NCBI GenBank assembly: GCA_902618205.1
Contig: CACMZL010000004.1
Coordinates: forward strand, 62,001-126,000
Origin: an uncultured Pelagibacteraceae bacterium
GTDB lineage: Bacteria; Pseudomonadota; Alphaproteobacteria; Pelagibacterales; Pelagibacteraceae
Length of the DNA stretch: 64,000 nt
Reading direction: 5' to 3'
A model generated the notes under the pieces. That model saw only the letters and a list, made by a program, of their open reading frames with translations. It was not told where the DNA came from and did no database searches. This document shows, piece after piece, positions 1,183 through 48,269 of the stretch; position 1 is the stretch's first letter; each line of letters starts with the position of its first letter. The position numbers and the translations under genes were made by a program.

Positions 1183-3003
1183 GTGGAAAGAATAATAACA
1201 AAATCATTTGCAAGATTAATGGGTCGAGGGATCCACCGTGGATTTATAACTCATGAGGAGCTAAATAAATCTCTAGGAAAAAGAAACTTATCAAGCGAAA
1301 ATCTTGCACAAGCTTTTATTCATATATTAGACGAAAATATAGTTTTAGTAGAAAAAAAATCGGATTATAAAATATTGAGAAAAAAGGATGCATCTTCTAA
1401 AGAAGAGGGCAAAACTTTAGAGAAAAGTGACGATCCGATTAGAATGTATCTTAGAGAGATGGGAGGTGTTGAGCTTTTATCTAGAGAGGGTGAGATTGCC
1501 ATTGCAAAAAGAATAGAAGCTGGAAAAGATGTAATGCTTAATGCATTGTCCCAGAGCCCAATAACGGCGCAACAATTTTTCGAATGGAATGATAAACTTC
1601 AAAAAGATGAAATTTTAGTTAGAGAAATTATTGATATAGATACTAATTATATGGAAGATGAGGATAGTAATAATAACACAAAAAAAAAAGATGAAGAACA
1701 AAGCTCAGATGAAAATAACAGCATCGAAGATGATGAATTTAATCCAACATTGGCAGCTATGGAAACAGAAATTAAGCCAAAAGTTTTACATACTGTGCAT
1801 ATATTAACCAAGGAATATAATAAACTTATAAAGTATCAAAAAGAAAAATTAGAATGTGTTTTAAATTCCAAAAAAATTTCACCATCTAAAGAAAAAAACT
1901 ATCAAAAAATTGTTGACGGAATTCTAGAAAACATTAAATCTTTACAACTTTCCCCTTCTGTTTTGGAGGATCTAGTTCAAAAACACTATTCAGAGAATAA
2001 AAAAATTGTTTCTTTAGAGGGAAATCTTTTGAGACTTGCAATTAATTTTAAAATTTCAAGAGAAGAATTTCTGAAATTTTATATTGGAAATGAAATAAAT
2101 CCTAATTTAAAAGAATTTTTAGATACCAACGAACAATGGAAAAAGTTTTTTCAAAAGAATAAAACAGAATTTAAAAATATTAGAGATAGATTAGTTGAAA
2201 TTAGTAATAAACTTGGGATATCTGTTACTGAATTTAAGAAACTTGTAAGTAGAGTTCAAAAAGGTGAGAAGGAATCTCGAATTGCAAAAAAAGAAATGGT
2301 CGAGGCAAATTTGAGATTAGTAATTTCAATTGCAAAAAAATATACAAACAGAGGTCTCCAATTTCTTGATTTAATTCAAGAAGGTAATATTGGTCTAATG
2401 AAAGCTGTTGATAAGTTTGAATATAGAAGGGGCTATAAATTCTCAACATATGCAACGTGGTGGATAAGACAAGCAATAACAAGATCTATCGCTGATCAGG
2501 CAAGAACAATCAGAATACCAGTTCATATGATAGAAACAATAAATAAAATCGTAAGAACACAAAGATTAATACTTAGTGAATTTGGAAGAGAAGCAACACC
2601 AGAGGAATTAGCCAAAAAATTAAGAATGCCTCTTGAGAAAGTTAGAAAAGTTTTAAAAATTTCCAAAGAACCTGTTTCTTTAGAAAAACCAGTTGGAGAT
2701 GAGGAAGATAGTAGTTTAGGTGATTTTATTGAAGATACAAAAGCACTAGCACCATTAGAACAAGCAATTAAATCTAATTTAAGCGAAGCTACAACTAAAA
2801 TACTATCAACTCTTACTCCTAGGGAAGAAAGAGTATTGAGAATGAGATTTGGTGTCGGAATGAATACTGATCATACACTAGAGGAAGTTGGGCTTCAGTT
2901 TTCAGTCACAAGGGAAAGAATAAGACAGATAGAGGCAAAGGCTTTAAGAAAGTTAAAACATCCAAGTCGATCTAAACAGTTAAAAAGCTTTTTAGAGAGT
3001 TAG
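1183..3003 (+). CDS. rpoD: RNA polymerase primary sigma factor RpoD (sigma-70)
   Basis: This is the housekeeping sigma factor that directs RNA polymerase to -10/-35 promoters. The 606 residues are close to the usual length. Region 1.1 is at the N terminus, an acidic non-conserved region lies near residues 150-190, and region 2 begins near residue 375 ([16 protein letters not shown], then the [14 protein letters not shown] melting helix). Region 4.2 has the helix-turn-helix [18 protein letters not shown]. The start is GTG; the [10 protein letters not shown] terminus fits and no closer ATG exists. It follows dnaG, and its TAG stop shares its last G with the first base of the downstream tRNA. 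Confidence 0.97.
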
Positions 3004-3077
3004 GGCCGTTAGCTCAATAGTAGAGTACTGCATTGACATTGCAGGGGTAGTTGGAGCGTAACCAACACGGCCCACCA
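3003..3077 (+). tRNA. tRNA-Val (anticodon GAC) with aberrant D- and T-loops
   Basis: It folds as a full cloverleaf with an encoded CCA. The acceptor GGGCCGT/ACGGCCC has 7 pairs; the D stem GCTC/GAGT has one G-T pair; the anticodon stem CTGCA/TGCAG encloses loop TTGACAT, giving GAC at 3035-3037; the T stem is GTTGG/CCAAC. The D-loop is AATAGTA, with at most one G in place of G18G19. The T-loop is AGCGTAA in place of the TTCRANY consensus, and the last variable-loop base is A. The 5' base is also the last base of the rpoD stop. The intact stems suggest a functional gene, but an early pseudogene cannot be excluded. Confidence 0.8.
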
Positions 3078-3138: not shown

Positions 3139-3215
3139 GGGCCTGTAGCTCAGTTGGTTAGAGCAGTACACTCATAATGTATTGGTCCCAGGTTCGAGTC
3201 CTGGCGGGCCCACCA
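3139..3215 (+). tRNA. tRNA with CAT anticodon, probably tRNA-Ile2 (lysidine-modified)
   Basis: It has a canonical cloverleaf: acceptor GGGCCTG/CGGGCCC, D-loop with GG, anticodon loop CTCATAA, T arm CCAGG-TTCGAGT-CCTGG and encoded CCA. CAT anticodons occur in initiator Met, elongator Met and Ile2. The paired G1-C72 rules out an initiator. C4-G69 and C5-G68 match the E. coli TilS identity pairs for Ile2, so Ile2 is favoured over elongator Met; that choice is inference. It lies 61 bases after tRNA-Val and is probably co-transcribed with it. Confidence 0.88.
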
Positions 3216-6526: not shown

Positions 6527-6889
6527 CTGCCAGATAAATGACTTATCGCTCTAATATTTTTAGAGAGGAAAGTCCGGGCTCTACAAAGACACAGTGCCAG
6601 TTAACAGCTGGCGGGGGAGACCCTAGGGATAGTGCCACAGAAAATAAACCGCCTTATCAAGGCAAGGGTGAAAAGGTGTGGTAAGAGCACACCGGCTAAG
6701 TTGGTAACAATTAGCGCATGGAAAACCCCACTGGGAGCAAGACTGAGTAGAGATGACATTGTTAGAAATAACTAAAAGCAGTCTTTGGTTAGTCATCAGG
6801 GTTAGTTGCTTGAGCTTTAAAGTGATTTAAAGCCTAGATAAATGATAAGTTTAAAAGACAGAACCCGGCTTATAGTTTATCTGGCATTT
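6527..6889 (+). ncRNA. rnpB: RNase P RNA (bacterial type A)
   Basis: This is the catalytic RNA that trims tRNA 5' leaders. The universal segments are present: GAGGAAAGTCCGGGCT at 6565-6580 and GACAGAACCCGGCTTA at 6857-6872, which together form the P4 helix. The terminal P1 helix pairs GCCAGATAAA (6529-6538) with TTTATCTGGC (6876-6885). The length of about 360 bases suits an alphaproteobacterial type A RNA. Together with its promoter and the mraZ promoter it fills the 534-base gap between ampD and mraZ. The ends are set from P1 to within a few bases. Confidence 0.95.
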
Positions 6890-48103: not shown

Positions 48104-48126
48104 TTAGGTTGTATTTTGAGTCTGTA

Positions 48127-48148
48127 AGTGAATCAAAAGTGAATCAAA
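48127..48148. repeat. two tandem copies of an 11-base unit
   Basis: AGTGAATCAAA occurs twice head to tail in the intergenic region between umuD and the GFA-family gene. It lies upstream of the predicted umuD -35. The 11-base period would place both copies on one face of the helix, as for an operator, but this may be chance duplication. Confidence 0.5.
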
Positions 48149-48269
48149 ACGAGAACATCGAAACAAGATTTAGTATGACTGTGGATAACTTTAACAAGTT
48201 ATAGTTTATGAAAATATGAGTTAAAAGTTTAAATGCAAAGAATTGTCAAAAAATTTAAAAGATAAAAAA

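Follow-up and report, generated by a model that had tools for sequence, protein, structure and literature searches.

Can a chromosomal tRNA of a free-living bacterium hold its elbow together through contacts other than the standard ones and still serve in translation? In tRNA generally, T54-Psi55-C56 and G18G19 are regarded as close to universal, and SAR11, which is free-living, is commonly counted among the most abundant bacterial groups in the sea. The question is raised here by a tRNA-Val(GAC) gene at the end of rpoD in an uncultured member of the Pelagibacteraceae, within a stretch of 64,000 nucleotides that we refer to as the window. The original prediction, made from the letters of the window, was of an intact tRNA in which the loops that form the elbow have been changed jointly, and that reading is supported and extended by the comparative analysis presented here. 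Passages of PMC4810234 and PMC7912444 describe the canonical bacterial elbow as built from G18-Psi55, G19-C56, and a trans Watson-Crick/Hoogsteen pair between U54 and A58. No description of the variant elbow was found in the open-licence PMC literature, and the term T-loop does not occur in a study of SAR11 tRNA signatures (PMC3937112).

Results

An intact tRNA-Val(GAC) with other residues at the elbow

The features of the locus are collected in Table 1. ARAGORN calls a tRNA-Val (gac) at 3003-3077, and the match to Rfam RF00005 (3003-3074) scores 53.6 bits against a gathering score of 29, which places the sequence within the tRNA family. Its assignment as tRNA-Val(GAC) follows from the GAC anticodon, the 7-base loop, A73, and the CCA, by sequence and by ARAGORN. 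As had been read from the window, the stems are intact and the CCA is encoded, with an acceptor stem of GGGCCGT/ACGGCCC, a D stem of GCTC/GAGT that contains one G-U pair (G10-U25), an anticodon stem of CTGCA/TGCAG, and a T stem of GTTGG/CCAAC. The cloverleaf is also the minimum-energy fold of the molecule (-28.6 kcal/mol, z -3.3, ViennaRNA).

It is at the elbow that the window tRNA departs from the canonical form. The loop residues named in the original prediction (A18 and G19 in the D-loop; A54, G55, and T58 in the T-loop) are all present, giving A18-G55 and A54-U58 in place of G18-U55 and U54-A58, and these residues offer no substrate for Psi55, m5U54, or Gm18. Common to both elbow types are the size of the T-loop, G19-C56, a purine at 57, a purine at 18, and the intact stems; the 7-base D-loop of the window tRNA is short, as it is in some canonical relatives. 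A G19-C56 pair is possible between G at 3020 and C at 3057. The A15-A48 combination and the G-T pair in the D stem, also listed in the original prediction, are present but are not specific to the altered elbow: A48 and G10-U25 occur in L121 and L126, which have normal elbows, and because A48 and U25 are shared by canonical congeners, we rejected 15-48 and G10-U25 as parts of the switch.

The window tRNA-Val scores lower against RF00005 than the adjacent tRNA-Met (53.6 versus 72.7 bits), and covariance models that expect TTCRA give lower scores to tRNA genes of this kind. In the source genome, which is 97% complete in 28 contigs, 32 Rfam tRNA matches yield 31 ARAGORN tRNAs, 30 of which have a TTCRA T-loop; the sole exception is the window tRNA-Val(GAC). 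Another tRNA-Val(GAC) elsewhere in the genome would have weakened the case, and none with a GAC anticodon is found among the 31. The only other tRNA-Val among them has the anticodon TAC. A partial Rfam match of 33.1 bits (G000:C1:280359-280416), for which ARAGORN makes no tRNA call, was left out of the 31. Two further RNAs in the window lie above their Rfam gathering scores, namely a class A RNase P RNA at 6530-6888 and the SAR11_0636 sRNA at 48107-48196; the sRNA match supports treating the source genome as SAR11 (Pelagibacter-like).

Table 1. Coordinates of the tRNA-Val(GAC) locus and its neighbours in the window
Feature	Position	Strand	Evidence
tRNA-Val(GAC) gene with alternative elbow and encoded CCA	3003..3077	+	Sequence, ARAGORN, Rfam
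D-loop AATAGTA; A18 at 3019, G19 at 3020	3016..3022	+	Sequence; A18 replaces G18 in every fully read variant relative
Anticodon GAC within loop TTGACAT	3035..3037	+	Sequence, ARAGORN
T-loop AGCGTAA (A54 G55 C56 G57 T58 A59 A60)	3055..3061	+	Sequence
rpoD stop codon TAG; final G is tRNA base 1	3001..3003	+	Sequence, relatives
tRNA-Met(CAT), downstream, canonical elbow (comparison)	3139..3215	+	ARAGORN, Rfam

Conservation and two paired switches within SAR11

We denote the genus of the source genome as g1, its family as f1, and another family of the same order as f2. Of 397 genomes from the order, 224 contain the exact pattern, a GAC-anticodon tRNA with the T-loop AGCGTAA; g1 accounts for 222 (out of 271 genomes) and g7 for the other 2. 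An open T-loop pattern was then applied to the 49 g1 genomes without the exact one. It recovered AGCATAA in 3, an intermediate in 1, and a canonical T-loop in 11; nothing matched in the other 34, of which 30 are only 82-89% complete. Among the first 22 relatives retrieved with the gene, 19 have the identical tRNA, and a 341-base query around it shows 80-89% identity in the ten longest relative matches. Finding the same gene across many independent genomes rejects an assembly error. This spread through g1 and the 30 ordinary T-loops of the source genome also make the departure more than a chance feature.

The stems have been maintained while their sequences changed. Across 38 distinct SAR11 tRNA-Val(GAC) rows, 16 of the 24 bracketed pairs show two-sided change and all four stems are 100% paired; base changes within the acceptor, anticodon, and T stems are compensated. 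A pseudogene is rejected on this compensation, and the earlier argument against simple decay is borne out both by the covarying stems and by the spread of the T-loop through the genus. In the variant relative L105, an energy-only fold gives a different 3' hairpin. As a separate observation, a tRNA-Val(GAC) with C33 instead of the usual U33 occurs at L097:1569-1643 and in the phage loci L158, L161, L174, and L408.

Within the same alignment, the joint alteration of the loops resolves into paired replacements. One switch takes 18-55 from G-U to A-G and the other takes 54-58 from U-A to A-U, with G19-C56 unchanged. The canonical combination (G18/T55 with T54/A58) is present in 26 of the 38 rows and the doubly switched one (A18/G55 with A54/T58) in 11, and the single remaining row, L124 from genome G221, is an intermediate in which 18-55 has switched and T54/A58 is retained. 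The two pairs are therefore separable. Neither of the mixed states G18/G55 and A18/T55 occurs among the 38; position 54-58 is U-A in 27, A-U in 11, and broken in none, and G19 and C56 are invariant throughout, in line with the expectation that this pair can still form.

Elbow history beside rpoD

A canonical copy at this place in related genomes had been named as a finding that would speak against the original prediction. Such copies do exist, in six g1 genomes (L332, L341, L342, L343, L350, and L353), and rather than undermining the core reading they point to switching in place between two elbow types. Among 23 g1 genomes examined at rpoD, tRNA-Val(GAC) starts between 1 base inside and 21 bases past the rpoD stop in 16, 10 of which have the variant and 6 the canonical elbow; it lies 252-1385 bases from rpoD in 3 others and outside the stretch examined in 4. 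The one-base overlap of the rpoD stop codon with tRNA base 1 is shared with G082 (L332) and G190 (L353). If the tRNA were cut free at its 5' end, the rpoD stop codon TAG would be truncated.

On an rpoD DNA tree of 29 rows, picked to include canonical and odd cases rather than as a random sample and with the intermediate counted as variant, 9 changes are required to explain the elbow label, and well-supported branches force 5 or more of them. Many forks of this tree are open, and the label is no more clustered than shuffled labels (244 of 500 shuffles were as low); an earlier protein tree yielded no such change count. On these sequences, the same rpoD-side gene appears to have switched its elbow repeatedly. 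As the tree is of one gene in a possibly recombining group, the changes may mix mutation with exchange.

Switched elbows in other tRNAs and other bacteria

The 18-55 switch is also seen on other SAR11 tRNAs. A tRNA-Phe(GAA) with A18/G55 and T54/A58 is present in G141, G143, G151, and G161, four genomes of two genera (loci L374, L375, L410, L424, and L443, with the T-loop TGCGATT or TGCGAAT). In G141, G143, and G161, reading every covariance match (16, 18, and 16 places) revealed no second tRNA-Phe; the search, which scored 150 candidates in each genome with an E limit of 1e-9, is not a full census. Because translation would depend on such a tRNA-Phe if it is the only one, this gene content supports a functional 18-55 switch and argues that the switch would be compatible with translation. 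A tRNA-Tyr(GTA) with A18/G55 lies at L429:2778-2863 in the g7 genome G075.

Among 289 genomes of the class, a Val(GAC)-like match is found in 229, and among the matches listed from beyond the SAR11 family, all those readable as tRNAs carry TTCRA in the T-loop. Across 397 genomes of the phylum, a search for A18/G55 tRNAs with one form of D arm finds them only in the window's own genome. A genome collection described as covering 84,980 species, scanned once with a pattern that excludes the SAR11 D stem, returned 34 loci, comprising 18 tRNA-His, 3 tRNA-Phe, 1 tRNA-Val(GAC), 6 imperfect tRNA-like sequences, and 6 chance matches. The variant tRNA-His genes (17 of the 18 called by ARAGORN) come mostly from Daviesbacteria, Gottesmanbacteria, Levybacteria, and similar records, the three tRNA-Phe loci from Gribaldobacteria and Nealsonbacteria, and the tRNA-Val(GAC) from Obscuribacterales.

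Viral tRNAs and the 18-55 rule

Viral contigs searched for A18 together with AGCRTWA gave 35 loci, of which 20 are ARAGORN tRNAs (Val, Lys, Asn, Met, and Ile), 4 are tRNA-like, and 11 are chance matches. A scan with residue 18 open and G53/C61 required gave 22 loci, all already among the A18 finds. When A18 is given (7-base D-loop, one D-stem form), G55 follows in 76 of 78 distinct viral tRNAs among the matches listed; when G55 is given and 18 left open, A18 follows in 76 of 78 and G18 in none, again among the matches listed, the two scans covering largely the same contigs. Larger viral pools, partly preselected in that they include loci chosen for G55 or A18, give G55 with A18 in 87 of 89 and A18 with G55 in 86 of 88.

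The association also holds for tRNAs that no query pattern selected. Among 564 of these parsed from viral and non-SAR11 loci, A18 is present in 93 of 94 with G55 (25 loci) and in 1 of 470 without it, residue 18 having been guessed by script from the D-loop sequence, a procedure by which unusual D-loops can be misread. Over all 631 viral tRNAs parsed, A18 accompanies G55 in 151 of 153, the remaining two being one G18 and one unclear, and it occurs in 5 of the 478 without G55, all of which have T55. The window tRNA obeys the same rule of A18 whenever 55 is G.

Of the 151 viral A18/G55 tRNAs, 123 have T54/A58, and the 54-58 pairs in the viral survey are U-A and A-U, rarely A-A, C-A, or G-G. Since A54-T58 is found with G18/T55 in 12 distinct tRNAs, all four combinations of the two switches exist. 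A60 accompanies A54-T58 in 60 of 63 tRNAs. There are also A18/G55 tRNA-like sequences with G54/G58 (11) and C54/C58 (4), few of which are called by ARAGORN.

Some viral loci are nearly wholly converted, with G55 in 12/12 parsed tRNAs at L262 and 14/15 at L235, loci selected for at least one converted tRNA; most parsed tRNAs also have G55 at L286 (10/12) and L296 (12/14). In eight named or uncultured phage regions fetched by similarity, A18/G55 is found in the tRNA-Met of Erwinia phage Cronus and in one tRNA-Met of Brevundimonas phage Kikimora, and several tRNAs (Ile, Val, Asn, and Thr) of an uncultured 634-kb phage (L405) combine A54/T58 with a normal G18/T55; the other five regions have neither G55 nor A54/T58. 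In these surveys, both switches recur outside SAR11: phage tRNAs carry them, as do the tRNA-His, -Phe, and -Val genes of some uncultured bacteria.

Discussion

We consider it probable, at roughly 80%, that the window gene encodes a functional elongator tRNA-Val(GAC) in which the contact between D-loop and T-loop is made by substituted tertiary pairs. It can be hypothesized that purine 18 remains intercalated between residues 57 and 58 and touches 55, with an A18-G55 contact where G18-Psi55 would be, and that the T-loop is closed by A54-U58 rather than by the reverse-Hoogsteen T54-A58. The L-shape would then be kept without m5U54, Psi55, or Gm18, and G19-C56 would keep the outer face of the elbow, for which passages of PMC4810234 describe a role in reading by the ribosome and other partners. 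Because A60 usually goes with A54/U58, another closure of the T-loop is conceivable, and covariation does not separate an A54-U58 pair from a rearrangement of A60. From its spacing, the tRNA may be cotranscribed with rpoD and cut out of that message. It would decode GUU and GUC alongside tRNA-Val(TAC).

The closest parallel comes from the laboratory. The Steinberg group (Zagryadskaya 2003, 2004, as cited in PMC7912444) reportedly selected suppressor tRNAs in vivo from randomised D/T-loop libraries, in which U at 55 is said to go with G18 and G at 55 with A18; a "purine trap" is reportedly the subject of Doyon 2004. By that account, the suppressors and the SAR11 tRNAs share the same two 18/55 states. 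The suppressors are laboratory clones; in SAR11, by contrast, many species have the pair fixed in a chromosomal gene, together with the 54-58 swap. The selected suppressors are said to keep the reverse-Hoogsteen U54-A58, for which the window tRNA has A54/T58 and the intermediate L124 has T54/A58. A more distant comparison is the eukaryotic initiator tRNA, given as A54-A58 in passages of PMC7912444, which has A54 in common with the window tRNA and differs from it at 58 (U in the window), 55, and 18.

Loss of the Psi55 synthase TruB might have removed the selective value of U55 and so let A18-G55 elbows arise. The TruB_N domain (PF01509) was not found in any genome tested of g1 (14), g8 (6), g9 (2), g10 (1), or g12 (1), and it was found in g5 (2/2), g6 (2/2), g7 (5/5), g11 (1/1), f2 (6/7), other members of the class (13/13), and controls (14/14). 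Of 12 genomes located via the His- or Phe-variant loci (0.3-1.3 Mb, completeness not given), 11 likewise gave no PF01509 match. Against this stands TruB-bearing g7, which carries the variant Val(GAC) (G130, G189, and G361) as well as the variant tRNA-Tyr (G075), and the Obscuribacterales genome with the variant Val(GAC) has TruB too. In the other direction, only the G103 copy is variant among 11 g8 Val(GAC) genes matched, and of the 11 of 271 g1 genomes with a canonical Val(GAC), the four tested all lack a TruB match. TruB loss is therefore neither required nor sufficient, and as sole cause it is rejected, since g7 has both the enzyme and the variant. We regard it as rather unlikely to be the explanation, and yet such a loss may ease the elbow switch.

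A wider proposal would make 18-55 and 54-58 independent, freely combinable switches by which phages convert single tRNAs or entire sets of them to evade host enzymes or nucleases that read the elbow, with SAR11, several genera of which seemingly have lost TruB, flipping their own tRNAs under the same pressure. Taken as a whole, this is a conjecture that we hold to be decidedly doubtful.

The variant gene could also have been spread horizontally as a phage-derived tRNA. A Val(GAC) with this elbow is present on viral contigs, and one g7 and one g1 tRNA are identical, yet the g7 rpoD is only 66-67% identical to the window rpoD. However, the window tRNA is unmatched in 50,697 phage records at E 0.01, on which import from known phages is rejected. 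Moreover, the canonical L122, from g1, keeps the acceptor and anticodon stems of the window tRNA, its differences being confined to the D-loop, the T-loop, residue 48, and the 52-62 pair, and the canonical L126, from G082, agrees with it in the acceptor stem and overlaps the rpoD stop in exactly the same way. Phage-derived spread is, on balance, very unlikely.

Under relaxed selection, tRNA-Val(TAC) would read all GUN codons and a dispensable Val(GAC) would be drifting to loss. Val(GAC) is absent from the covariance matches read in eight genomes (92-99% complete) without a pattern match, where all matches were read in G075, G141, G143, and G161 and the best 3 or 4 in G091, G142, G151, and G166; seven of these genomes, all but G142, showed Val(TAC). 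From this, Val(GAC) appears dispensable and a poorly working copy could be tolerated, Val(TAC) probably covering all GUN codons in such relatives. The 34 g1 genomes without a Val(GAC) match by pattern, mostly the less complete ones noted above, fall on the same side. Drift is nevertheless a highly improbable account of a T-loop that is the same in more than 200 species despite diverging surrounding DNA, of compensated stems, and of loop changes that are paired and not random.

As improbable is a specialised tRNA outside ordinary translation, for which the staphylococcal cell-wall tRNA-Gly is a comparison case, with an elbow tuned to avoid EF-Tu or the ribosome: just one of the 31 tRNAs of the genome is affected and relatives can do without Val(GAC), but the same switches sit on many phage isoacceptors and on tRNA-His and -Phe of uncultured bacteria, the 18-55 switch alone is found on tRNA-Phe of other SAR11, and in some congeners this very gene, at an unchanged position, has the ordinary elbow.

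A functional tRNA-Val(GAC) with substituted tertiary pairs would mean that a chromosomal tRNA of a free-living bacterial group has fixed other tertiary contacts and, on the tree of one gene, has changed them repeatedly in place. The elbow changes of SAR11 could then be viewed as natural experiments on what the elbow requires and on Psi55, and the swaps in phages and uncultured bacteria make the rules reportedly drawn from laboratory selection testable with natural molecules. A part of tRNA that textbooks hold constant appears to have more than one working version.
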